From positions 173,363-237,362 of the forward strand of contig ONND01000006.1 of the NCBI GenBank assembly GCA_900319105.1: a stretch of 64,000 nucleotides of DNA, given 5' to 3'. Positions within the stretch are counted from its first letter, which is position 1; each line of letters starts with the position of its first letter. This DNA comes from an uncultured Bacteroidales bacterium (GTDB lineage: Bacteria; Bacteroidota; Bacteroidia; Bacteroidales; Paludibacteraceae). The notes below the pieces were generated by a model that worked only from the letters and a program-made list of their open reading frames with translations, had not been told where the DNA came from and did no database searches. Made by a program: the position numbers and the translations under genes. Positions 4,933 to 44,578 of this stretch are shown here, piece after piece.

Positions 4933-6274
4933 AACCTTTTCGTTTATCTTCAATCTTCAAAGCGAGACTCAGCAGGAATGCGAGTACGCCGAAAGATGCA
5001 AACACAATCATCGGTACAAGGTATCCGTTGGTAGCCACGCGCAGTTTGCCGATCAGCAGCGGCACGAGGCAAAGACCGATGTTCTGCACCCAGAAAATGA
5101 GGCAGTACGCCGAACCAAGCACTTTCTCGTCGATGATCTTCGGCACGGACGGCCACATGGATGCCGGCACGAGCGAGAAGCTGACGCCCAGTACCAAGAT
5201 GGTAATGAGTGCAAGTGCCTTACTCGGGTATGCAGGTAGCACGAACGCGAAGATACCATGGCACGCGATCATGATCACCGCACCTAACAACATCATCGAC
5301 GCTCCTTTGCCTTTATAATCGATGAATGCACCGAGGAAAGGTGTCAGTACCATGGCCAGGATCGGGAACCACTTGAACAAACCCGCAGCTTCTGCATTGG
5401 ATATATTCAGCGTCTCCTCCAGGAAGTTCGTAGCGAACCGCTGGAAGGGGAAGATGGCACTGTAGTACAGCACGCAAAGAAGCGCAATGATCCAGAACAT
5501 CTTGGACTTGAAGATCTGTCCGAGGTCGGACACATGGAACTCTTCCTCCGAGTCGCCTTCCATGGACACCTCTCCGATAGCGACGAGCTGGTTGTCAAAG
5601 CGTACATCCATGATCGTGAATACGAAGAAATTGAGCAAACCTACTACGAGCAGCAGTGACGCGAAGAGCAGCGGTGCCGTGACGGAGTTAACGCCGTTGA
5701 CGGCAAACTGCTCACTGAAGATCGGCGAGAGCCACATAGCGGCGAACACACCGATACGCGCGATCGCCATCTCCAGACCCATAGCAAGCGCCATCTCTTT
5801 ACCTTTGAACCACTTGGCAAGAACCTTACTCACCGTCGTACCTGCCATCTCACATCCGCAGCCGAAGATCATAAAACCGAACATTGCCAACTTGGCGCTA
5901 CCCGGCATCGACGGCCACCAGGCATTGAGCCACTCAACCGTATTGGCTTCGGACCATGAGATGCCCCAGTACTTGATACCCGCGCCGATCACCATGAGGC
6001 TGGCGGAGAGCAGACCCGTGAAACGGACTCCCATCTTGTCGAGGATGATACCTGCGAGGATGAGGAAACCGAATACGTTCAGCAGATACTCACCGGCCGC
6101 GTAGGTGCCGAACACGCCTTGATCCCAGCCGAGACTGTCGTTGAGCAACGAGGCTAAAGGCGAGAGGATATCGACGAACATATACGCGAAAAACATCATC
6201 GATGCCACGAGGACGAGCACCGTCCAACGGGCAGCGGCACTATCGCGAAGTGTTTGTTGAATTTTTTGTACCAT
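4904..6274 (-). CDS. Major facilitator superfamily transporter
   Basis: A 456-residue inner-membrane protein with about 12 hydrophobic helices and a cytoplasmic central loop around residues 225-260 (GEVSMEGDSEEEFHVSD). The loop GIILDKMGVRFTG after helix 2 is the classic MFS D-R/K-x-G-R/K type signature. It looks like the MFSD1-like MFS proteins of Bacteroidota. The substrate cannot be read from the sequence; amino acid or peptide transport would be a guess. The ATG at 6274 lies inside the 3' end of the small ORF at 6240-6359, and its own 3' end overlaps murF. It is therefore probably part of one transcript from the ompH genes to murF. Confidence 0.88.
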   Translation of the reverse strand: MVQKIQQTLRDSAAARWTVLVLVASMMFFAYMFVDILSPLASLLNDSLGWDQGVFGTYAAGEYLLNVFGFLILAGIILDKMGVRFTGLLSASLMVIGAGIKYWGISWSEANTVEWLNAWWPSMPGSAKLAMFGFMIFGCGCEMAGTTVSKVLAKWFKGKEMALAMGLEMAIARIGVFAAMWLSPIFSEQFAVNGVNSVTAPLLFASLLLVVGLLNFFVFTIMDVRFDNQLVAIGEVSMEGDSEEEFHVSDLGQIFKSKMFWIIALLCVLYYSAIFPFQRFATNFLEETLNISNAEAAGLFKWFPILAMVLTPFLGAFIDYKGKGASMMLLGAVIMIACHGIFAFVLPAYPSKALALITILVLGVSFSLVPASMWPSVPKIIDEKVLGSAYCLIFWVQNIGLCLVPLLIGKLRVATNGYLVPMIVFASFGVLAFLLSLALKIEDKRKGYGLELPNKK

Positions 6275-6359
6275 AACTAAACTTTTTTTTCTTTTTTAGC
6301 CACTCTGCTTTCTTCTTTTCGTACTCAGCATAGTGGGATTCTAAATAGCCGTCTGCCAT
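6240..6359 (-). CDS. Small basic protein, coupled to the second ompH gene
   Basis: This 39-codon ORF starts MADGYLESHY and continues with a Lys/Glu-rich helix (YEKKKAEWLKKKKK). Its ATG overlaps the stop codon of the ompH gene (TAATG), the arrangement expected for translational coupling. The N-terminal pattern resembles a group of roughly 40-residue Bacteroidales proteins that I recall, often wrongly named dehydrogenase in databases. An A-rich run (about 6281-6297) encodes the lysines and could favour slippage. The 3' end overlaps the MFS start by 35 nt in another frame. It is a probable real gene of unknown function. Confidence 0.58.
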   Translation of the reverse strand: MADGYLESHYAEYEKKKAEWLKKKKKFSYGTKNSTNTSR

Positions 6360-6850
6360 TATTTGATGCCGAGTTCTTTTTTAACTGCGGGAGTGGCATC
6401 GATAGCGTCGTTGCCGACATGTACCATAGCCTGGCTGTCGAAGATATAGGTGTAGCCTTCGCGCTCGCCAACGGCTTTGATAGCCTTTGCCATCTTCTCG
6501 TGGATCGGAGCTAACAGTTCCTGTTGTTTCTTCTGGATATCCTGCTCTGCGGTCTGGTAGAAGAGTTGGATACGCTGCTGCATCTCCTGCAGTTCCTGCT
6601 GACGGATCTGCTTTACCGCATCCGCCATGGTAGCTTCCTGGGACTGATAGTCCTGCATTTTCTTCTGGATCTCCTCGTTCATCGAAGCCAGTTGAGCTTC
6701 GTACTGACCTTGGATGGTGTCCATCTTGAGTTTTACTTGTGCCACTTCAGGCATCTGAGTGAACAGTTCCTGTGTGTTGATGTGACCGAATTTCTGTGCG
6801 CTGGCGAGCATAGGCAAGGCCAGCATGATAGTAATAATAATCTTTTTCAT
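6359..6850 (-). CDS. OmpH/Skp family periplasmic chaperone (second copy)
   Basis: With the start at MKKIIITIM (6850) the product has about 163 residues. It has a signal peptide ending ASAQ, a strand (FGHINTQELF), two long antiparallel helices rich in Gln/Glu (about 35-125), and a C-terminal strand region YTYIFDSQAMVHVG. This is the full OmpH/Skp layout: the protein trims into a tentacle-like trimer that carries unfolded outer-membrane proteins to the BAM complex. It follows another ompH gene and bamA, the usual Bacteroidota order. An upstream in-frame ATG at 6874 would spoil the signal peptide, so 6850 is preferred. Confidence 0.92.
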   Translation of the reverse strand: MKKIIITIMLALPMLASAQKFGHINTQELFTQMPEVAQVKLKMDTIQGQYEAQLASMNEEIQKKMQDYQSQEATMADAVKQIRQQELQEMQQRIQLFYQTAEQDIQKKQQELLAPIHEKMAKAIKAVGEREGYTYIFDSQAMVHVGNDAIDATPAVKKELGIK

Positions 6851-6898
6851 TGTTGTGTTATAAACTTTAAACATTAAACTTTCAACTTTTTACTTTAA

Positions 6899-35074: not shown

Positions 35075-35188
35075 TATTTTATAAATAAAATGTTTTTTTA
35101 TTTTAAAATGAGTTTGGCACGATGTTTGTTATATAAGAGTAAACACTATTTGATTAGTGGATTATTAGAGATTGTTTGTTATATGTAA

Positions 35189-35221
35189 AAACGAGTTCGT
35201 CGGGATGACGAGCTCGTTTTA
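35189..35221. terminator. Bidirectional terminator at the end of the ten-gene operon
   Basis: The stem ACGAGTTCGTC (35191-35201)/GACGAGCTCGT (35207-35217) has flanking A/T runs. It is about 40 nt past the last stop codon of the operon that starts at 44494. Confidence 0.85.
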
Positions 35222-35222
35222 A

Positions 35223-35261
35223 ATTATCAATTATCAATTATCAATTATCAATTATCAATTA
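35223..35261. repeat. TTATCAA tandem repeat at the operon end
   Basis: Four to five copies of a nine-base ATTATCAAT unit lie between the terminator and the last gene and contribute the stop codon of the 35259 gene. Confidence 0.8.
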
Positions 35262-36281
35262 CTTAAACCATTTACCTTTCACTTGGTATTTGGGTTTAGC
35301 GGGAGCTTTTACTGCTTCATCGGATTGGTCTGCTACGGCATTCGTAGCTACCTGCAGCGCTTGTTTCTGCTGCGTAGCTACAGCGCGGGAATTGGTGGGC
35401 TGTTCCGCCGCCTGTTGTGCCTGAGCGGCCTGTTGGTCTTCGTACTGGCGCATTTTGAACTCCCATTCTTCGCGCTCTTTGGCGTCTAACTTGGCAGCGA
35501 TCTCATGCTTCAGTGCATTCGCATCCTTGACACAAGCGCCATCGGTCGGGATGAACTCCAGTGCCGCTGCAGCAGCCTTGGCGTCGCGTGTAGCCCAAGC
35601 AGCCTGCGCTTTATTGAGGGCCATCAGGCAAACCTCGTCGCGCCACGCCTGATAAGCTACCAGACTCTCGTCCTGTGCTCTGCGGTAACACGACTCACAA
35701 ACCATCGGTACGCTGGTCAGCAGGTCAATCGCACCGGAGAACTCATGCTTCTGCACCATGGTCTGCGCATCGGCAATGACAATATCGCAATAGGTGTTGT
35801 AATAAGCGATGATCTCCTTTTTACCCTTGTCCACCATTGCTTTGAAGCCCGGATCGTTCACGCGCACGTTCTTCAATGCGTTGATATATGCTTTGTCCGG
35901 CGTTTGACCGACCCCTGTACACTCAACGGTATAGGAGGAGAACAGACGTCCTTCCACACCGTCACCCACGTAGAAATTGAGGGCGATTGTATAGGCGTGC
36001 ATCGGTGGCGCTGTAGGAGTAATATCCTTGGTGAGCACGTCAGCGGAACAAGTAATGACGAAGCGACTGTTGCTGATTGCAGAGCATCCGCTCTTAGCCG
36101 CTATCTGCGTCATCTTATTCTCTAATTGCTTATGAGCTCCTGAAGGGATATTATCATCCAGTACGATAGGAGTCAAGGCAATGCGCTCTTGGTCGTTCAA
36201 CCGTCCTGCTTCGTCCTGTGCTGCTATGTAGCTAATAGCCAATAGCCAACAGCTAATAGCTAATAATGCTATTCTTTTCAT
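35259..36281 (-). CDS. Exported protein of unknown function (operon gene 10)
   Basis: The 340-residue product has a signal peptide (1-21). An N-terminal part (30-140) contains two Cys (SGCSAIS, VITCSADVL). A helical middle region with repeated Ala/Glu/Asp helices looks like TPR-type packing (IADAQTMVQKHEFSGAIDLLTS, ALNKAQAAWATRDAKAAAAAL). The C-terminus is Gln/Ala-rich, then Lys/Pro-rich. The N-terminal half partly resembles the LPP20-like pattern. Its signal peptide is built from a repeated LLAIS motif, encoded by an AGCTAATAGC-type repeat at 36225-36270. It follows the DUF6175-like gene by 1 nt. No function is known. Confidence 0.8.
   Translation of the reverse strand: MKRIALLAISCWLLAISYIAAQDEAGRLNDQERIALTPIVLDDNIPSGAHKQLENKMTQIAAKSGCSAISNSRFVITCSADVLTKDITPTAPPMHAYTIALNFYVGDGVEGRLFSSYTVECTGVGQTPDKAYINALKNVRVNDPGFKAMVDKGKKEIIAYYNTYCDIVIADAQTMVQKHEFSGAIDLLTSVPMVCESCYRRAQDESLVAYQAWRDEVCLMALNKAQAAWATRDAKAAAAALEFIPTDGACVKDANALKHEIAAKLDAKEREEWEFKMRQYEDQQAAQAQQAAEQPTNSRAVATQQKQALQVATNAVADQSDEAVKAPAKPKYQVKGKWFK
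36225..36270. repeat. AGCTAATAGC repeat encoding a signal peptide core
   Basis: Three to four copies of AGCTAATAGCC-type sequence encode the LLAIS-CWLLAIS signal-peptide core of the 35259-36281 product. Confidence 0.6.
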
Positions 36282-36282
36282 A

Positions 36283-37701
36283 TTATTTTCCTCCGATTAT
36301 GAATTGAAGTTGACCAAGTCCTTTCGAAGAAAGGTTACTCTCGATGGAATATTTATTCCGCAGCATTTTCTGCAGTCCTCGAGCCCAAGTACGTGCATCG
36401 AGATCGCGTCCTTTCTCGTTCTGCAGCGGAATACGAACCTGCTCAATGGTCATTCGGTTGCCCGACGGACTGATATCCGGCGAACCGAACTTACCATTCA
36501 CGGTATTGGCGGCTACCCAGTCTTCGATAATCTCGTGCAACTCGTCTCCGTCAAATTCAGCCATCAGACCGTCATCGAAACTATCCCATGTAAGGATACG
36601 CATCTTGATAGCGCGTCCCTGCTTGTTGAGTTGGTCGAAATAGGTCATCAGACTATTGCAGAACGGGTCGAACTGACCTCCGATAGCGCCGGACATAGCG
36701 GTCGGTAACTCGAACTTGGACGTGTACTCGGGTTGGCCTGTGGTAGGCGGAACACCGGCAACAACGACATCGGTATAGGCATCCAGCGCATTCATGCTAT
36801 AGGTCAGGCTCTGTTGGCTACCACCCTTGAGCGGTGTGGTGAACCATTCGATCTCAACCCATATATCCGCTTTCGCTACACGGCGGAGGATGTCTATCGG
36901 CGATTCAGCAATAGCGTCACCCATCTTGGAGGTCATCATCGCATCTTCCGCACTTTCGTTCTTGAGAGTCTTCAACGAAGCCTCCAGATCCTTGAGCGGG
37001 AAATTACGATTTGCCATGAGGGTGTTGATGGTGTTGATGGCTACCGAGAGATCGGTCGAGTTCAGCAGTGCTTTCTCGTAATCCGGTACATACTCTGTTT
37101 TGCCTTGATTATCAAAGGCCTGCATGTAACCGTTCTTATTACACCACATAGCACTCGGAACGACCATGATGGTCGGCATCTTTCCCTTAACGACCTCTTC
37201 CATTTTGGCGAGGATTCCTTCTTGCTCCATGCGCTTGCGTAACTCGTCCACCATGACGGTCACGAGGATAGGCACTTTATATTCCTTGCCGATCTTAAGC
37301 GGAGCTTGGTCGGGGATACCATTACCCATATAGGATACGTAGCGTTGGAACTCGCCGTTGTCAGCAAAGAATTTCTTGAAGAACTCCTCATATTGCTCTT
37401 CTTTCTCTCTGTCAGCAATAAGCGGATTGCGGCCCGGGATACGTTTGCCTTCCATTGAGGGAGGATAGCCCATGAACAGAATACCATGAACGGCATTCTT
37501 GCCGGCCTGCAACGTAGCTACATTGGCATTCTTGGAATAGGTCCATACGCGAACCAGGGCACATCCGTGAGGAGCCTGACCGACTGCGGCCTGCAGCTCA
37601 TAGCGCCAGTGATCCGTGTCTTTATTCGCTTTCTTCTGGGCTTGAGCAAAAAGCGGAAGACCGAGAACCAGCGATAAAGCGATAATTAAATAACGTTTCA
37701 T
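36283..37701 (-). CDS. Exported DUF6175-like protein (operon gene 9)
   Basis: The 472-residue product has a signal peptide (1-21, ending AQAQ). An N-terminal domain (25-150) contains CALVRVWTYSK, and a central block GKMPTIMVVPSAMWCNKNGY is what I recall as the signature of DUF6175 proteins in Bacteroidota. A C-terminal part holds strand pairs (ADIWVEIEWFT, MRILTWDSFDDGLM) and the closing LGQLQFIIGGK. The name rests on memory of the family; no reaction is known. It lies 6 nt behind the 37708 gene and 1 nt before the 35259 gene, so expression is tightly linked. Confidence 0.82.
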   Translation of the reverse strand: MKRYLIIALSLVLGLPLFAQAQKKANKDTDHWRYELQAAVGQAPHGCALVRVWTYSKNANVATLQAGKNAVHGILFMGYPPSMEGKRIPGRNPLIADREKEEQYEEFFKKFFADNGEFQRYVSYMGNGIPDQAPLKIGKEYKVPILVTVMVDELRKRMEQEGILAKMEEVVKGKMPTIMVVPSAMWCNKNGYMQAFDNQGKTEYVPDYEKALLNSTDLSVAINTINTLMANRNFPLKDLEASLKTLKNESAEDAMMTSKMGDAIAESPIDILRRVAKADIWVEIEWFTTPLKGGSQQSLTYSMNALDAYTDVVVAGVPPTTGQPEYTSKFELPTAMSGAIGGQFDPFCNSLMTYFDQLNKQGRAIKMRILTWDSFDDGLMAEFDGDELHEIIEDWVAANTVNGKFGSPDISPSGNRMTIEQVRIPLQNEKGRDLDARTWARGLQKMLRNKYSIESNLSSKGLGQLQFIIGGK

Positions 37702-37707
37702 TGTCTT

Positions 37708-39060
37708 TTATTTTTCAATCAGTAATAAACCTTTGTACAGGTTCGCTTTGTTGGTCTTGAAGACCGTACCGTTCAGAGCTTGTGCTTCTTTATCGGGCTC
37801 GTCCTCAGATGCGGCAAAGCGGTTGTCCCAAATAGGAGCGTTGGCTTTTACGTTCGTCACGTCTTTGTATTCGGTCTTACCGTTCTTGAGAACCATCTCG
37901 CGGATGACGTATTTCTTTTTCACCGTTACACCCTCTTTCATGCCGATATCCGCACGCACACCGATCGTCTTGCCTTTTGCATTCGTTACAACTTCAGCAA
38001 TCGGGGTGTAGACACGGAACTCCGGGAAACGGGCTTGCAGTGTATTGATGGCATCATCCATCGTACGGGAACAGGTAATGAAAATCTGCTCCGAAGGATC
38101 TTTTTGCGAATACGCACCGATATTGAAAGCAGTGCCGTTGTTCGTGATAGTAGGCATCATACCTACGTATTTTAGACGGAAAGTCTCTTTGTCTGCCAGG
38201 AAAGCATCAATCTTTGCTTTGTCACCCTCTTCGGTGTAGTACTTGGAGTAGAAAGCGTTTTGTACGTCTTCGTTCCAGTCTAATTGGTAGAGGTAGGTCA
38301 TTTCGCAGACAGCGAAACCCTTGATATCCAGTATTTCGTTAACGGTCTTCGACAGATCGCCTACCAGTTCGGTAGCTGCGCCGGCAATAGTGGCAGCTGT
38401 ACCGCCGATGTTGATGGCTGCGTCGAGAATGCCGAGGCCGGTCTTGGTATTGCTCAGTTCCTGACCGACACTCTGAATGTCCTTTCCGACAGCAGAGATA
38501 GCATCCATGACAGCGGATGCGTAAGCAGCACGCTCTGCATGGTTGATGTAACTGATATCGTTGACAAGCACGAAAGTCTTACCGATGAGTTCATCACCTG
38601 CATCAGCGAGGTTAACGACACCGGATATCGTTCCTTGCGCCAACTCTTTCTTTAACTCGGAAGCATCGTACATACCTTCCTCAGTCAGACGGTTGGTATT
38701 AAAACCTTTCTGCTCGTCGAAATTGAACCAGTACTTAACCATCGCTTTAGCGATCTGGTCGTTCGTGAGCACTTCGTCGAACATCTTATGACGAGCGGTA
38801 TCTTTAACGGACTTGTAATCGGCATGGTCGTTCAGACGAATGACTGTTGCCTTGGCTCCCTTGCGGGCGTCGTTGTAGCGGTTCGGGAACGGCATGTTCT
38901 CTGCCGCATAAAGGATTTCAGCGGCAAACGAGTCCTGCGAGTGAACGACAGGCATAATGAACAATGAACTGCGGTGATAACCGGTAGTGGAGGTGATCTC
39001 TTGCGCCGAAGCAGTCATCGCTATTACAAGCGCAACACCAAAGAATAGAATTTTTTTCAT
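37708..39060 (-). CDS. Exported protein of unknown function (operon gene 8)
   Basis: The 450-residue protein has a signal peptide (1-19). Its centre has a helical Gly/Ala-rich stretch (about 200-245: LGILDAAINIGGTAATIAGAATELVG, cited in parts), which could be a membrane-associated amphipathic helix. The flanking parts have mixed strands, including AKAMVKYWFNFDEQKGFNTNRL and QIFITCSRTMDDAINTLQ. The C-terminal section (KYVIREMVLKNGKTEYKDV) is basic. I recognise no family. By position it is one of five exported proteins in the operon and most likely periplasmic or outer-membrane associated. Confidence 0.82.
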   Translation of the reverse strand: MKKILFFGVALVIAMTASAQEITSTTGYHRSSLFIMPVVHSQDSFAAEILYAAENMPFPNRYNDARKGAKATVIRLNDHADYKSVKDTARHKMFDEVLTNDQIAKAMVKYWFNFDEQKGFNTNRLTEEGMYDASELKKELAQGTISGVVNLADAGDELIGKTFVLVNDISYINHAERAAYASAVMDAISAVGKDIQSVGQELSNTKTGLGILDAAINIGGTAATIAGAATELVGDLSKTVNEILDIKGFAVCEMTYLYQLDWNEDVQNAFYSKYYTEEGDKAKIDAFLADKETFRLKYVGMMPTITNNGTAFNIGAYSQKDPSEQIFITCSRTMDDAINTLQARFPEFRVYTPIAEVVTNAKGKTIGVRADIGMKEGVTVKKKYVIREMVLKNGKTEYKDVTNVKANAPIWDNRFAASEDEPDKEAQALNGTVFKTNKANLYKGLLLIEK

Positions 39061-39088
39061 CGTATTAAAAATGATTATTTGTTACATG

Positions 39089-40015
39089 TTATTTGATATA
39101 GCATCGGGTGTTGTATTTCTTACCCAATATAGTATAAACGATATCCAACCAGTTCTGCTCATCCTCATAGCATCCGGTGGAGAAATCATAGCGGATGACG
39201 GACGAACTGATGGCATTCTTGATTTCAATAGCCGTCAAGCAATTGCTTTTCACTTTCGGCACAAGCGTGCAGATTAGTTGCTTCTGACCATAGAAAAGCG
39301 CTACGCGCGTGCTCTCGCGATCAGATGAAATAGTCTCCACGCGCAGGTTACGGGATAACATCTGGTCATAGGACTGACGGATGGTCTCACATATACTGCG
39401 GCGCGAATCGCTCTCGCGAAGTGTACTGGTGAACTGCTTGAACTGGTTATAGTGCATCATCATCGCATCCAAATCGTCAAACTCCGCAAAATCCGTTGCG
39501 GCAAATCGTTGAAGCGTGTCGTTGATCAGTTTCTGGTGCTGGTCGTACTCGTCAACTAACATGCGCAACTGGGAGTTGGAGAACGGATATTTGACGTGGT
39601 AATGATAATACGTCGATTTGTCGTTTCTGCGAATCTGTGCCCAGTAATAATCAGAAGCGTGGGAAGGAGATACATCTGCCAAATAGGGTATATCTGCGGC
39701 TTCCACACTCAGTTGGCTCTTCATCTCTTTGAGCGAAACAATATCGCCGTTCGAGCTCGTCTCATGCATCGTGATCGAGGTTGCCGAATGAACGCGCGTA
39801 GCGATCGCCGAAACGATCTGCTCGCGTACCTGCGTCATCGCTTTCTGCTGTGCATCTTCCAATGACTCGGCCTGTGCCGAAACGATGAAGTAGCCCTTTT
39901 CCATTCCGCCTATCCATTTCGGCATGTGTTTGGCGGAGGACTGGATCACTTTCTCTCCGGCAACTGCCGCTCCGACGAGCAGCAGTGCCGAGATAAAAGT
40001 CAATAGACGTTTCAT
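39089..40015 (-). CDS. Exported LPP20-like protein (operon gene 7)
   Basis: The 308-residue product has a signal peptide ending AVAG (about 20). The region from residue 30 reads MPKWIGGMEKGYFIVSAQAESLEDAQQKAMTQVREQIVSAIATRV. Split into its elements (PKWI, then YFIVSAQAES, then an Ala-rich helix), it matches the LPP20-like pattern of the proteins at 436-888 and 1-412. A longer C-terminal region (150-308) has charged helices and a beta tail (STRVALFYGQKQLICTLV). It is the seventh gene of the operon. No enzyme motif is seen. Confidence 0.82.
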   Translation of the reverse strand: MKRLLTFISALLLVGAAVAGEKVIQSSAKHMPKWIGGMEKGYFIVSAQAESLEDAQQKAMTQVREQIVSAIATRVHSATSITMHETSSNGDIVSLKEMKSQLSVEAADIPYLADVSPSHASDYYWAQIRRNDKSTYYHYHVKYPFSNSQLRMLVDEYDQHQKLINDTLQRFAATDFAEFDDLDAMMMHYNQFKQFTSTLRESDSRRSICETIRQSYDQMLSRNLRVETISSDRESTRVALFYGQKQLICTLVPKVKSNCLTAIEIKNAISSSVIRYDFSTGCYEDEQNWLDIVYTILGKKYNTRCYIK

Positions 40016-40059
40016 ATATTTTTGTCTTTAGTCTGAGGTCTTTCGACTTTCGACTTCGA

Positions 40060-40740
40060 TTAGAAACCAAGCACTTTGTCCAATTGGTCGTGAAGGTTCT
40101 CACCTTTCTTCTCCAATTCGTTGCGTACGGCTTTCTTAACAGCGTCCTTAGCCATGTCGCCGTTGTAAGCGATACGAACCAGCACCTCTTTGTTGCCGCT
40201 CTTCTTAACCTCGCGATAGCACTCTACTACCGTGATCGTACGACCGATAGACTGCGAGATCAGGTTCTTGCTCGACATGATCGTCTCTACGATAGAAGCA
40301 GCCTCGTTAGCCTGCAGTTGCTTGTTGGCAACGGTGTTCTCAACGAGTGCGGTTACTTCGGTCTGGATCTGACCTGCGAGGTTGGTAATAGCAAGGCTGA
40401 GAGCCGAAGTCTTAGCTGCGTCGTAGTTCTCGCCGATCGATTGAGCATTAGCCATGATATACTTCGGATAGAGGTTCTCGTCATACTCCATCTCCATCAG
40501 ATACGAGCGATCCAGCTGTTTCTCCAGGGGTAATGTACCCGGGCTGACTACCCAACCTTCTTTTTTCAGACGCTTTGCCTCTTTCTTAGCGGCTTTCGTG
40601 CTTTTCTCATTCAGTTGTTTCTTGTCCAACTTGCGCAATTCTTTGCGCTCTTTGTAGATCTGCTTTGCGTCAGAGGTTTCTGCAAAACTTACACTGCATG
40701 CTACGATTAAGGCCATAGCTACCATCATCAGTTTTTTCAT
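40060..40740 (-). CDS. Exported LPP20-like protein with basic helix (operon gene 6)
   Basis: The 226-residue protein has a signal peptide (1-20), then a highly basic helix (about 25-65, KQIYKERKELRKLDKKQ and KKEAKRLKKEG). Its LPP20-like domain (90-220) contains IMANAQSIGENYDAAKTSAL and the conserved type of strand ITVVECYREVKKSGNKEVLV. The same basic-helix-plus-LPP20 layout occurs in the 888-1709 product. The basic helix could bind acidic lipids, lipopolysaccharide or nucleic acid. It is the most LPP20-like member of the operon. Confidence 0.84.
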   Translation of the reverse strand: MKKLMMVAMALIVACSVSFAETSDAKQIYKERKELRKLDKKQLNEKSTKAAKKEAKRLKKEGWVVSPGTLPLEKQLDRSYLMEMEYDENLYPKYIMANAQSIGENYDAAKTSALSLAITNLAGQIQTEVTALVENTVANKQLQANEAASIVETIMSSKNLISQSIGRTITVVECYREVKKSGNKEVLVRIAYNGDMAKDAVKKAVRNELEKKGENLHDQLDKVLGF

Positions 40741-40767
40741 AATTGTAGATATTTTAAGTGAATAAAT

Positions 40768-41106
40768 TTATTTTGCTATTGCATATGCAATCACTAACCA
40801 TAGAATCAATAATACACCGGTGGTGAGAGTGTATGTCGGCATCGTGACGGCCGAGAACGTGAATACGATCTGCAGCACGGTCATAACTGCGGCGCATAGA
40901 CCACTCAGCACTTTGTAATTGACATTACGTCCCCGATCGGGAATGGAAACAGCCAAAGTTCCCGCCCAGGTAAGGAAGATACTAACGCCGCCTAAGAGCG
41001 TGATCATCCATTTCAGTTCCTCGTTCTGGCAATACGAATAAAGCGCATAGGACACCAGAACGGCCAGGAGCAGGGAGATGAGGGTTAAAAACGGATTGAT
41101 TTTCAT
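40768..41106 (-). CDS. Four-helix membrane protein (operon gene 5)
   Basis: This 112-residue protein is almost entirely hydrophobic with four predicted membrane helices: about 5-25, 34-55, 66-88 and 92-111. The first loop contains CQNEELKW and the second SIPDRGRNVN. No family is recognised. It could be a membrane anchor or small transporter partner for the SPFH/GYF proteins encoded just upstream. It starts 43 nt after the 41150 gene, and the gap is filled by a TTTAACAATTTAACG-type repeat. Confidence 0.78.
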   Translation of the reverse strand: MKINPFLTLISLLLAVLVSYALYSYCQNEELKWMITLLGGVSIFLTWAGTLAVSIPDRGRNVNYKVLSGLCAAVMTVLQIVFTFSAVTMPTYTLTTGVLLILWLVIAYAIAK

Positions 41107-41149
41107 GTTTTAACAATTTAACGATTTAACACTTTAACGTTCTAACGCG

Positions 41150-41458
41150 TTAGCCGAAAATCGGCGCAAGGTCGGGCCGCGAAGATGCGGGTTCCCACGC
41201 GTTCATACCTTGACACCATACCAGCGTGTGGCCGTTGATCTGTCCTGTCGGAACAAACGGACGCAGTTGCTCTACGGTGAAAGGACCATATTGCTTGCCC
41301 TCGATGGCAAGGAAATAAGCCGTGGCTTTCGGAATAGGTGGCGGTGCAGGTTGATTAGCGGCCGTGTTGGCGGCATTCATCATCTGCGGAATCTGCTGGC
41401 AGACGGCCATGCCCATACCGAATTCCACTACTCTGTCAAACATTCCGGAGTCGCTCAT
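41150..41458 (-). CDS. GYF_2 (DUF4339)-type protein, short (operon gene 4)
   Basis: The 102-residue protein has a Met/Ala-rich N-terminal part and a GYF_2-type domain at about 48-95: YFLAIEGKQYGPFTVEQLRPFV and TLVWCQGMNAWEPA. This small domain, with its G-P-(F/L/C)-(T/N/D) turn and a W at the end, binds proline-rich peptides in eukaryotic GYF proteins. The bacterial role is less clear, but it is often fused to membrane proteins. A Pro-rich stretch (PAPPPIP) precedes the domain and could be an intra- or intermolecular ligand. It overlaps the 41455 gene by 4 nt. Confidence 0.84.
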   Translation of the reverse strand: MSDSGMFDRVVEFGMGMAVCQQIPQMMNAANTAANQPAPPPIPKATAYFLAIEGKQYGPFTVEQLRPFVPTGQINGHTLVWCQGMNAWEPASSRPDLAPIFG

Positions 41459-41823
41459 AATGAGATCTGTTTAAGAGTTGCCCATTCGGGTGTACCAACT
41501 TGCCATATAGGCGTGTCTGCATCAATGACATCAGCAATGGCGAGGCCCTTTAACTGCTCAATGTTCAGCGGTCCTTTCTGCTCGTTGTTGATGAGCACGA
41601 AGAACTGCGGCTGAGCGGCCTGTTGCTCTTTGGCCAGGCGATCAAACGTAGGCATCGTCGGTGCTGCCGGCGCATTGCCTAACGGAACCTGAGTCTGCAT
41701 GGCTTGCACGTTCTGAAGAGCCTGCTGAGTCATCTGATTATTGATGCCGGAATTAACCATTTGGTCCTGCGTATAGAAACCCTTTCCGGTTCCAACTAAC
41801 GCATCAAATTCTTTCGGATCCAT
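41455..41823 (-). CDS. GYF_2 (DUF4339)-type protein (operon gene 3)
   Basis: The 122-residue protein ends in a GYF_2-type domain (about 75-122: FFVLINNEQKGPLNIEQLKGL and DTPIWQVGTPEWATL). The N-terminal part (1-70) is Gln/Met-rich and includes FDALVGTGKGFYTQDQM. Its domain is clearly paralogous to those at 41150 and in the C-terminus of the SPFH protein at 41862. There is no signal peptide, so it is cytoplasmic. Three GYF-like domains in a row suggest a shared binding partner, perhaps the Pro-rich tail of the SPFH protein. Confidence 0.86.
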   Translation of the reverse strand: MDPKEFDALVGTGKGFYTQDQMVNSGINNQMTQQALQNVQAMQTQVPLGNAPAAPTMPTFDRLAKEQQAAQPQFFVLINNEQKGPLNIEQLKGLAIADVIDADTPIWQVGTPEWATLKQISL

Positions 41824-41861
41824 ATTACTTAACTTTAAACAGTGAACACTAAACTCTCAAC

Positions 41862-43433
41862 TTACATGGTGGGAGGCGGAGGCGGAACGCTACCCGGTGT
41901 CGGCGGTGTCGGCGGAGCCTGGAAGAGCTGCGCGAGTGCCGGAACGGTACCGGCTGCTGCCCATTGCGGCATGCCGTTTGCCCATACCATCGTCTGTGCG
42001 TTCATCTGGCCTGCACCGATCATCTGACGGATGGCGTTCATGTCGCACGGTCCCATCTGCTGGTTGTTGATGAGCACGAAATAAGCTGCGGCTTGCGGCG
42101 TCGGAGGAGCAGGGGGCGTCTGACCCGGCATAGGCGGAGGAGTGGGGGCACTGGCTTGAGCCACTTGATTGTTGAAGGCATTGCCCATGTTACCCATCAT
42201 CTGACCCATCTGACCTGCCATACCGGAAGCCATACCCATACCCATCATCATTCCTGCGGGGTTCATGCCGCCGCCGGAACCGAAGTCCATGTTGCCCATT
42301 TGGCCCATGCTCTCCATTCCTGTTTGCATAACGGAACCTTGTACATTGACGGTATGAGCACCGAGATAAGCGGTCTCGGAAGCAAGGTTGGTACGATGAG
42401 CGGTGGACTCGGTCTGCATGTGTTGTGCAAACTGAGCTTCTTCGCGCATACGGCCCAACATATCTTCCTGATGATCCATCTGGATATTCGCTTGGCGAAC
42501 CACCATACCATTACGAACAGCTGCGTCGGTAGCCAACTGGCTGAGGACGTTTTCTTCGTTCTGCAGGTTAATATGGAAAGATTGATCTTCGGTGACGCGT
42601 TTGAGTTTGAGATAACCCTGTGCGCCTTGATTGAAACGGATATCCGTGATATTGAGTTGTACGGGCCATATACCGAAACTACGGCGCAGTTGCGGGAACA
42701 TGTTCGCCAACATGAATTGTCCCCATTCCTTGCGCAGACGGTTGAGGTCCAGCGCAAAGACCTCAGGCGGCAGGTTGGCAAAACGGCTTGCTACTTCGGC
42801 GGTTACCATGCCTTCCATTCGTTTCTTGAGTTCGGCAATAGTGGTGTCGCTACCATCCCATTTCTCAAACAGACCTTTAAGCTGATCCTTGAGTTGGGCT
42901 TTACGGAACTGCTCGAAATCATCGGTACGTCCTGCTTGGTCGAACTGCCAGCGGTATTCCTCTCGGGAAGGAGCCGTAGCGAACATGAGGTTACCGTCAA
43001 CGGCTACCTCCAACTCGTACATCTTATATTCCGGTTGCGAAGGGAAGATAGAGAAGAACGGAATCGTGAAATCGAGGCTCATACCCTCCGAGAGGCTGAT
43101 GAAATAAACCTCTGTCTGGAAGGGCGTGCCACCGTCATAAGCGGCACCGATGATGCTCGCCAGAACAGGCATGTTGTCGGTCTTAATGACATCATTATAC
43201 GGTCCGATGATGACATCATAATCTCCGCCCGTATTCGGGTAAAGGAAGATAGCTGCCTGACCCGGACGTACATTAAGACTGCTGCCGGTACGGATAGAGT
43301 TCTCTTTCTTCGTTGAGTTGGCTTCTTGTCCCGCCGGACGCCATTTCCAGATCAGGAAATCTTTCTCGTCACAACGGATGGCGTCCATTAAGCCGCCTTC
43401 GTTCGTTTTTTTACCAAAACCAAAAAGTCCCAT
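41862..43433 (-). CDS. SPFH-domain protein with C-terminal GYF_2 domain (operon gene 2)
   Basis: The 523-residue protein begins MGLFGFGKK and contains an SPFH/Band-7-like part of the virion core/YdjI type (about 40-290: SLNVRPGQAAIFLYPN, YFISLSEGMSLDFTIPFFSI, WPVQLNITDIRFNQGAQGYL). There is no obvious N-terminal membrane helix, so it would be a peripheral scaffold. After a long Met/Gly-rich linker (about 370-440) comes a GYF_2 domain (YFVLINNQQMGPCDMNAIRQ) and a Pro-rich end (PPTPPTPGSVPPPPP). In Bacillus subtilis the related YdjI works with zinc-ribbon membrane protein YdjG and PspA in membrane stress; that link is by analogy. Confidence 0.9.
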   Translation of the reverse strand: MGLFGFGKKTNEGGLMDAIRCDEKDFLIWKWRPAGQEANSTKKENSIRTGSSLNVRPGQAAIFLYPNTGGDYDVIIGPYNDVIKTDNMPVLASIIGAAYDGGTPFQTEVYFISLSEGMSLDFTIPFFSIFPSQPEYKMYELEVAVDGNLMFATAPSREEYRWQFDQAGRTDDFEQFRKAQLKDQLKGLFEKWDGSDTTIAELKKRMEGMVTAEVASRFANLPPEVFALDLNRLRKEWGQFMLANMFPQLRRSFGIWPVQLNITDIRFNQGAQGYLKLKRVTEDQSFHINLQNEENVLSQLATDAAVRNGMVVRQANIQMDHQEDMLGRMREEAQFAQHMQTESTAHRTNLASETAYLGAHTVNVQGSVMQTGMESMGQMGNMDFGSGGGMNPAGMMMGMGMASGMAGQMGQMMGNMGNAFNNQVAQASAPTPPPMPGQTPPAPPTPQAAAYFVLINNQQMGPCDMNAIRQMIGAGQMNAQTMVWANGMPQWAAAGTVPALAQLFQAPPTPPTPGSVPPPPPTM

Positions 43434-43477
43434 ATTGTTTTACAATTTAACGGTTTAACAATTTAACAGTTTAACGC

Positions 43478-44494
43478 TTATTTGTATGCTGCAACGATTT
43501 TCTCCAAGCGGCTCTGCACCTGATCTTTGGTGTAATATCCCGAGCGGTTGGACGCGAAATGCAACGCTTTCTTGGCGATGAAAGTCTGTGCGGGACCGAG
43601 CAATCCGGCTTGGCACATGAGGTTAACGGCATCCTCCATATACTCGTAGTATTCACCGTCTGTCGGTTTGGCCTCTACATTGATGTAGTTCTCAGCCTGG
43701 TCATAATCGCCTGTGGACATGAGATAGTTGAACAAACCGCGGTTCAGATCACCTGTGTACTGGCCTTGACCGTAGAATTCTACTAAGGATTTGGCCTCTT
43801 CCCACATACCTTCGTCGAAATACTTGCTCAATAGCGTTACGTAACTCTCCATGATATCATCCTTGTCGTTCTTGTAGCCGACGATGAAATTACGGGCCTG
43901 CTTGAGGTTATCTTTATCGACCGCCTTGGTGACGGCAGTAATGCAGCGGTCTGCGTTATTGGCTGCGGTATCGCGGTAAGCGATGAGAACACCGCCGGTG
44001 ACGAGGAGTGCTACAACGATGAGTACAACGGTAATAAGCATCTTGGAGTGCTCTGCGAACCAATCGCTACGATCGGCTTTCTTCTGTTGCTCCATGATAG
44101 CGGCATGCAGCGCGGGGAACTCATCTGCAAAAGGCTTTAACTGCGGGTCGTTCGGGAATGATACTTTGATCTTCTCAATCAGCTCCTGATACTTGGTCAT
44201 ATAGGCCTCTGCGAGTGGGTCGTTCGCCTTCTTGATACGTGGTTTAAGCGCCGTGGCAAACTCGATGAGGTCTGCCTTGGAGTTCGGCAGAGGGAAGGTC
44301 TCAATGATCTGATATTTCTCATCGTAGTCATCGGTGGCGGCTAACAGGACGGCAAGATTGACAGAACTGGTGTTGGCTGCAATGTTGCTGAATTCATAAC
44401 CGCATTTAGGGCAAACGGAAGCGGACTCAGGTACTACTTCGCCACAGCGAGGGCAGTGCTGTAATTCACCTCCTTTTGTTTTGTACTCACTCAT
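43478..44494 (-). CDS. Zinc-ribbon membrane protein (operon gene 1)
   Basis: The 338-residue protein starts with a zinc ribbon (CPRCGEVVPESASVCPKCG; Cys14, 17, 28 and 31). It then has a helical cytoplasmic region, one membrane helix (about 150-172, MLITVVLIVVALLVTGG), and an outer part of 165 residues with TPR-like helices (FIVGYKNDKDDIMESYV, GMWEEAKSLVEFYGQGQY, GDYDQAENYIN). It is the first gene of the ten-gene operon behind the only recognisable promoter. The combination of a cytosolic zinc ribbon and periplasmic TPR-like repeats suggests transmission of a signal across the membrane. Function is unknown. Confidence 0.88.
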   Translation of the reverse strand: MSEYKTKGGELQHCPRCGEVVPESASVCPKCGYEFSNIAANTSSVNLAVLLAATDDYDEKYQIIETFPLPNSKADLIEFATALKPRIKKANDPLAEAYMTKYQELIEKIKVSFPNDPQLKPFADEFPALHAAIMEQQKKADRSDWFAEHSKMLITVVLIVVALLVTGGVLIAYRDTAANNADRCITAVTKAVDKDNLKQARNFIVGYKNDKDDIMESYVTLLSKYFDEGMWEEAKSLVEFYGQGQYTGDLNRGLFNYLMSTGDYDQAENYINVEAKPTDGEYYEYMEDAVNLMCQAGLLGPAQTFIAKKALHFASNRSGYYTKDQVQSRLEKIVAAYK

Positions 44495-44546
44495 AATAGT
44501 AGGATATTTTGTAGGTTAATAATAGAATATACTTTATATTCGGCGG

Positions 44547-44578
44547 CAAAGATACAACAATTTTTTGATATACACAAA
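44547..44578 (-). promoter_or_regulatory. Promoter of the ten-gene operon
   Basis: Minus-strand TTTG (44575-44578), a 20-nt spacer and TATCTTTG (44547-44554). No other matching promoter was seen down to 35259. Confidence 0.8.

Follow-up and report, generated by a model that had tools for sequence, protein, structure and literature searches.

A ten-gene Bacteroidales operon joining a PspA-less SPFH cassette to exported LPP20-like and DUF6175 proteins

In Bacillus subtilis, the SPFH protein YdjI and the membrane proteins YdjG/H are needed for the recruitment of PspA to the membrane, and loss of YdjI lowers membrane fluidity (PMC8581546). The corresponding operon is pspA(ydjF)-ydjG-ydjH-ydjI and is written ydjFGHL in a second report, which also carries the proposal that band-7 proteins are helpers in membrane-complex assembly (PMC11237479). 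Stomatin-family SPFH proteins are reported to act on ion channels (PMC3390797, PMC12344292). SPFH proteins are universal, and the choice of their clients is an open question. Here we describe a ten-gene operon (genes A to J, Table 1) in a 64,000-nucleotide stretch of DNA from an uncultured Bacteroidales bacterium, hereafter the window; loci numbered L.. are stretches from other genomes or contigs. We tentatively read the operon as a PspA-less SPFH cassette (A–E) whose client here would be an exported LPP20/DUF6175 envelope complex (F–J), a reading that is quite possible, if short of probable. A first-pass annotation of the window had proposed a single machine; one operon of scaffold and exported parts stands, and an indivisible ten-part machine does not, as the two modules are separately widespread.

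All ten open reading frames (ORFs) are present on the minus strand between 35259 and 44494, and the gaps between them are short: 44 bases (A-B), 38 (B-C), an overlap of 4 (C-D), 43 (D-E), 27 (E-F), 44 (F-G), 28 (G-H), 6 (H-I) and 1 (I-J). Bacteroidales promoters take the form TTTG, 20 bases, TAnnTTTG. The sequence TTTG-N20-TATCTTTG at 44578-44547 has this form, and 52 bases separate its end from the start codon of A; the pattern has 16 matches over both window strands, versus ~0.9 expected from base composition. The TAnnTTTG part begins 57–68 bases upstream of A in nine of the ten genomes that have all ten genes in this order, and was not found before A in the tenth (L134). Between labelled genes, TAnnTTTG was seen in two cases over eight loci (L131–L137 and L150), namely at the H-I junction of L131 and inside an extra gene in L133, and within the window operon this shorter word occurs once, inside C. 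The stem of the intrinsic terminator has 13 pairs (35220-35188; -15.8 kcal/mol, z -5.8), and none of 200 shuffles was equally good. Generic scans gave no excess of sites, either for sigma-70 promoters (18 versus 17.1 in shuffles) or for terminators (13 versus 14.4). The co-directional genes, short gaps (-4 to 44 bases), single promoter and single terminator proposed in the first-pass annotation are thus all borne out and, judged by order, spacing and promoter placement, the ten genes form one predicted transcription unit of gut bacteria whose layout is conserved.

The first-pass annotation had named a failure of related genomes to keep the genes together as a finding that would speak against a system, and a neighbourhood search with B shows the order A-B-C-D-E-F-G-H-I-J kept in ten genomes (the window, L131–L137, L327 and L329). 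The loci L131–L137, from Paludibacteraceae and other Bacteroidales, are seven of the 80 cassette loci described below and all have the ten-gene order; two of them come from sheep abomasum and roe deer rumen. In a family sample of 300 genomes, B was found at E 1e-40 or better in 19, among them the window's own genome, five already taken as L133–L137, and G522 and G479 (L327 and L329), which have all ten genes. J is unseen in L136 because the contig ends at I. I is a single gene in seven of the ten genomes and is divided between two adjacent ORFs in L131, L135 and L136, and ~1.2 kb of extra sequence lies between G and H in five (L132–L134, L327, L329). In L132 (7250-8446) and L133 (14528-15730) this insert encodes an exported, Gly-rich, collagen-like protein of 398–400 amino acids (aa); L134 has an ORF of 398 aa there, and the gap in L327 and L329 is of similar size. 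The two genes upstream of the operon in the window are also present in L131, L136 and L137, together with one more small gene before A, and recent mobility of the ten-gene locus is not favoured for this reason.

The products of A–E make up the first module. Transmembrane (TM) segments and signal-like N-termini were assigned by hydropathy, which gives one TM segment in A, four in E and none in B–D. Protein A, previously annotated as a zinc-ribbon/TPR membrane protein, retains the zinc ribbon (UPF0547/zinc ribbon, above the Pfam cut-off) and the TM helix, while the TPR match is sub-threshold only (Pfam, E 0.062); its C-terminal region is presumably extracytoplasmic. B matches PF13421 with E 3.4e-11 and 43.6 bits against a cut-off of 24 (best stretch aa 43-114), and GYF_2 with E 2e-17; it has no PF01145 match. 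The linker ahead of its GYF tail is Met/Pro-rich as well as Met/Gly-rich, and Pro-rich stretches occur at aa 430-446 and 507-521 of B and aa 37-43 of D. An SPFH-GYF protein, two GYF proteins and a four-helix membrane protein are accordingly found by Pfam and hydropathy where the first-pass annotation had placed them.

The second module comprises F–J, each of which has an N-terminal signal-like segment, in agreement with the five exported proteins proposed earlier. F and G share a common LPP20-like core (profile-profile comparison, 95%), and compared with a profile of 11 Bacteroidales proteins above the LPP20 cut-off G scores 96% (2.9e-9) and F 91% (1.1e-6). Both miss the Pfam cut-off for LPP20 (PF02169), G with 13.9 bits versus 25.9 and F with no match, so the earlier LPP20-like label holds by profile-profile comparison and not by Pfam. 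The best PDB match of F is 5ok8 from H. pylori (E 0.051). I is a DUF6175 (PF19672) protein, as proposed (E 7.6e-94, profile positions 1-293 of 293, above the Pfam cut-off), and no nameable relative family was found for J, nor any relation between J and I. Five long relatives of H (544–585 aa) have an outer-membrane-barrel-like end with a terminal Phe, as judged by eye; among three of the long relatives scanned there was no barrel family match. PDB profile searches found no convincing match for H, I, J or G; those of G to alpha-actinin (best E 0.0011) fall on a helical stretch and were taken as coiled-coil noise. A CsgG-like (PF03783) fold of J, I or H was suggested by eye and rejected, with hhalign probabilities of 0.5–6.9% against two CsgG alignments.

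Table 1. Features of the ten-gene operon and its predicted signals in the window
Feature	Description	Position	Strand	Basis
A	zinc ribbon (aa 13-36), FPLPNSK-type region, one TM helix (153-171), 167-aa C-terminal region	43478..44494	-	Pfam, hydropathy
B	SPFH/band-7 (PF13421), Met/Gly-rich linker, Pro-rich segments, C-terminal GYF_2	41862..43433	-	Pfam
C	small protein, C-terminal GYF_2	41455..41823	-	Pfam
D	small GYF_2 protein; L111 relative has zinc ribbons instead of GYF	41150..41458	-	Pfam
E	small four-TM protein, closing gene of SPFH cassette	40768..41106	-	hydropathy, gene order
F	exported, LPP20-like	40060..40740	-	profile-profile comparison
G	exported, LPP20-like	39089..40015	-	profile-profile comparison
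H	exported, 450 aa; longer relatives end in barrel-like part, terminal Phe	37708..39060	-	by eye for barrel
I	exported DUF6175 protein; N-terminal part is a separate gene in many relatives	36283..37701	-	Pfam
J	exported, 340 aa, no known family	35259..36281	-	Pfam
Promoter	Bacteroidales type, TTTG-N20-TAnnTTTG, upstream of A	44547..44578	-	pattern match, conservation across ten-gene loci
Terminator	intrinsic terminator	35188..35220	-	folding

The first module also occurs by itself. Genome contigs were scanned with B and one relative, whose two-sequence alignment finds loci through the peptide patterns MNPAGMM and EGGLM and so covers B proteins that carry these, and the best 80 of 170 confirmed loci were analyzed. 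Genes in fetched loci were called with a simple ORF script that is blind to genes beneath opposing ORFs, and family labels were taken from six-frame ORFs. A lies directly before B in 66 of the 80 loci and within 6 kb in six more (five have no A and three are cut), while E follows B within 2.5 kb in 74 (three have no E and three are cut); both surround B in 60 of 74 uncut loci. The 74 loci with E have one small GYF-family gene between B and E in 44 cases and two such genes in 14. A GYF tail is found in 72 of the 80 B proteins, an undercount by at least L131, which plainly has a GYF domain. The hosts are mostly Bacteroidota and Spirochaetota, with a few Bacillota. In an order sample of 247 genomes, 69 match the B model at all and five reach the line of at least 400 bits at which the B subfamily was drawn; 64 carry weaker SPFH-GYF relatives or lone GYF matches, few of whose surroundings were inspected and none of which were counted as cassettes. 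The neighbours of the cassette vary widely, with no unlabelled cluster common to more than four loci. From this distribution of genes, A-B-(C)-D-E is a compact, recurrent and widespread cassette that also occurs apart from F–J.

The locus L111 (genome G048) has recognizable A, B, D and E in order, with B and D ending in zinc ribbons where the window proteins have GYF, and GYF and zinc ribbon thus interchange on the same scaffold. The A relative of L111 has a TerB-like N-terminus that falls below the Pfam cut-off (20.9 bits versus 24.4). TerB, zinc-ribbon, GYF and SPFH parts recall biological-conflict systems, and the patchy spread of the cassette would also suit an anti-phage role. We consider such a role very improbable, as the only PADLOC match of the ten proteins at E 0.1 is that of the A zinc ribbon to Cas12f (14.6 bits), the order is kept in ten genomes with the upstream genes shared by three, and a set of five proteins with signals would be unusual in a defence system. 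Near other cassettes, DnaJ-type cysteine-rich repeat proteins are encoded upstream in L138 (6651-8726), L194 (6830-8317) and L183 (7477-9207), those of L138 and L194 being below the DnaJ cut-off.

The second module has its own distribution. DUF6175 occurs in 58 and H in 39 of the 247 order genomes, and fetched stretches outside the joined loci have a compact I-J set, mostly accompanied by H and in some cases by G and F, with SPFH genes absent. Gene content thus indicates that the module around I-J is a recurrent exported Bacteroidales set, usually found alone. In stand-alone sets H lies before I or, in L091, L095, L096 and L130, after J, and I is often split into two or three genes (N-terminal ~170 aa, C-terminal ~320 aa). 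A zinc-ribbon A-like gene lies near the set in L108 and, weakly, in L311. Exported-looking repeat proteins of 556–564 aa are encoded between J and H in L095 (7554-9248) and L096 (8716-10386). In the Bacteroidales loci L302 (3084-5842) and L304 (7439-10200), a ~455-aa LPP20 protein is paired with a ~460-aa, weakly J-like protein, a pair that may be a remote relative of G-J. Two more H paralogues occur in the window's own genome, at 9524-10804 of L109 (contig C20) and 9988-11244 of L110 (contig C19), which are 38% and 36% identical to H; no DUF6175 gene was found within the 20 kb fetched around either. At 2-2323 of the window, on the minus strand, four small adjacent ORFs have signal-like starts; two are weakly F-like (E 9.3e-5 and 6.5e-4), those at 888-1709 and 1784-2323 have no Pfam match at E 0.01, and together they are probably another LPP20-like set.

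A DUF6175 gene lies within the fetched stretch of nine of the 80 cassette loci, and three of the 58 order genomes with DUF6175 have the B subfamily, side by side with it in the window's own genome only. A tree of 85 B proteins was labelled for the presence of an adjacent DUF6175 set (10 rows). This label needs three changes, and the well-supported branches force three; 500 label shuffles averaged 9.6 changes and none were as low as three, on a tree whose bootstrap is not fully settled. One half of the tree holds the ten-gene clade together with L139, and the other half holds L150 (Rikenellaceae). L150 has the order H-I-J-A-B-D-E with gaps of 9–74 bases, followed 48 bases after E by a 209-aa exported, F-like protein, F' (hhalign 76.6%, E 2.2e-5; only E 0.094 with a hidden Markov model). 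L139 has the order I-J-154 aa-B-GYF-GYF-E, with A ~7.6 kb away; upstream of its I-J is a 562-aa protein (5189-6877) with a weak LPP20 match (E 0.0052). Over L138–L210, a DUF6175 neighbour is seen in two loci versus 0.085 expected by chance (P 0.0034), an estimate that assumes 3.5-Mb genomes and 66 DUF6175 matches per 247 genomes. Based on this tree, the two modules are joined more than once, on at least two distant SPFH branches, and the ten-gene clade and L139 could go back to a single joining followed by several losses.

Joint operon structure and repeated joining suggest that the ten proteins may form an envelope-spanning machine. The same arrangement would arise if two envelope-stress modules, needed in the same condition, shared one promoter with no physical contact between their products. 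This co-regulation is a distinct possibility, though somewhat doubtful: in its favour, most occurrences of either module lack the other, and the order at the junction differs by lineage (E-F in the ten-gene loci; J-A plus E-F' in L150). Tight joining that recurs in distant lineages, at gaps of tens of bases, is also expected from contact and does not decide the matter.

In five loci, genes for ion channels stand at or near the cassette. A voltage-gated-type channel (Ion_trans) lies directly before A in L194 (8323-9147), a glutamate-receptor-like channel (Lig_chan) directly after E in L199 (11378-12460), and Castor/Pollux-type channels after E in L196 (12521-14425) and before A in L200 (7159-9099); the Castor/Pollux-type channel of L183 (5018-6916) is the third gene before A, outside the near-gene rule. 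Among neighbours of L138–L210, with L149 and L160 dropped as near-copies and with no contribution from L142, L193 and similar loci where the gene caller missed B, channels are four of 137 near genes versus none of 151 far genes (one-sided Fisher ~0.05). The scan covered 11 of 16 multi-TM near genes and all 18 multi-TM far genes; the five left out are of at most 101 aa, and single-TM and soluble neighbours were mostly outside it. In a phylum sample of 148 genomes, the background of Castor-type channels is low, with full-length ones in seven, matches above the cut-off in 10 and any match in 20, and Ion_trans is common (95 of 148). The proximity of these genes is a lead pointing to ion channels as a possible further kind of client of the cassette.

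For the preferred reading of a cassette with an exported client, a mechanism can be proposed. First, B would oligomerize on the cytoplasmic face, like other SPFH proteins, and would be held at the inner membrane by E and by A, the zinc ribbon of which would be inside and the C-terminal region outside. Next, the Pro-rich stretches in B and D would be ligands for the GYF domains present in B, C and D, resulting in a multivalent scaffold beneath the membrane. Contact with the exported proteins F–J would then be made by the outer part of A, possibly together with E, and the scaffold would place, assemble or survey these proteins, either in the periplasm or at the outer membrane. Elsewhere, the cassette would serve other membrane clients, perhaps including ion channels.

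Several observations weigh against this reading. The two modules also occur apart: among the five order genomes with the B subfamily, two are without a DUF6175 match and in two more the match lies on a different contig, and the other 11 of the 19 family genomes with B have no F–J gene in the fetched stretch (only ~4 kb long in two). The PPG motif is the classical form of GYF ligands. This motif was not found in A, B, C or D, and the GYF ligand is consequently uncertain. The outer region of A was considered as a mark of joined loci and was rejected because, in 18 loci outside that group, A likewise continues for 100 aa or more beyond its final TM segment; by hydropathy, this region is not special to joined loci. 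None of the seven full-length Castor-type channels of the phylum sample is near a cassette, which indicates that the channels do not need it.

A broader and rather unlikely proposal is that A-B-D-E is a general, undescribed bacterial SPFH platform with swappable clients (Castor/Pollux-type, voltage-gated or glutamate-receptor-like channels, or an exported outer-membrane-linked LPP20/DUF6175 complex), in which GYF and zinc ribbon would exchange as adaptor modules and the ten-gene operon would be a trans-envelope machine driven or organized from the cytoplasmic face without PspA. The changes of adaptor (GYF or zinc ribbon) and of linked client (channels or exported complexes) between species are natural swap experiments. 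The operon gives DUF6175 testable neighbours and suggests that, in Gram-negatives, an SPFH platform can be linked with proteins of the periplasm or outer membrane in the absence of PspA.

A PSP-like role in membrane repair would assign F–J differently, with a YdjI-like B recruiting an effector to damaged inner membrane and the exported proteins as further stress outputs. The pairing of a PF13421 SPFH protein with a zinc-ribbon membrane protein encoded next to it, as for YdjI/YdjG (PMC8581546, PMC11237479), fits such a role and is in line with the likeness to YdjI/YdjG drawn by the first-pass annotation. PspA (PF04012) has no match in the operon or in the whole window genome (90.8% complete), as stated earlier for the operon, whereas control genomes match in nine of 14, and no TPM domain was found at E <= 1 in any of the ten proteins with Pfam. 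With both partners missing and with cassette neighbours as variable as described above, PSP-like repair is improbable, and the operon is not filed as a PSP system for want of PspA and the TPM partner.

Comparison with other described systems yields partial likenesses. The GYF domain resembles that of Myxococcus GltJ/AglX (NCBIfam NF033761, 23.6–42.1 bits; 1.4e-4 to PDB 7z3c), but these scores are far below the 450-bit equivalog cut-off and come mainly from the GYF region, and no gliding function is implied. F and G are like the LPP20 lipoproteins (PF02169; 5ok8) by profile, but lie below the Pfam cut-off and have other partners. PHROGs gave nothing of use for the ten proteins. Among the openly licensed papers searched, no title or abstract start describes the cassette or the ten-gene set, consistent with the earlier statement that no such system had been described, and DUF6175 is in no paper searched. 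As with stomatin-family proteins, the SPFH gene lies near channel genes in some species, a likeness known here from gene neighbourhood alone; in contrast to stomatin-family and flotillin band-7 proteins, B has neither a PF01145 match nor a membrane segment by hydropathy. The closest counterpart is YdjGHI of B. subtilis, and the operon would work most like it, with partial likeness. Both have an SPFH gene of PF13421, a family to which we take YdjI to belong, beside the gene of a zinc-ribbon membrane protein, with further membrane proteins in the operon. Unlike YdjFGHI, the window operon is without PspA and the TPM-domain YdjH, has GYF domains and GYF adaptors in place of the zinc-ribbon tail of YdjI, and adds the four-TM protein E and the joined exported LPP20/DUF6175 set. 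The domain families of this operon are thus known, and it is their assembly and partners that are new.

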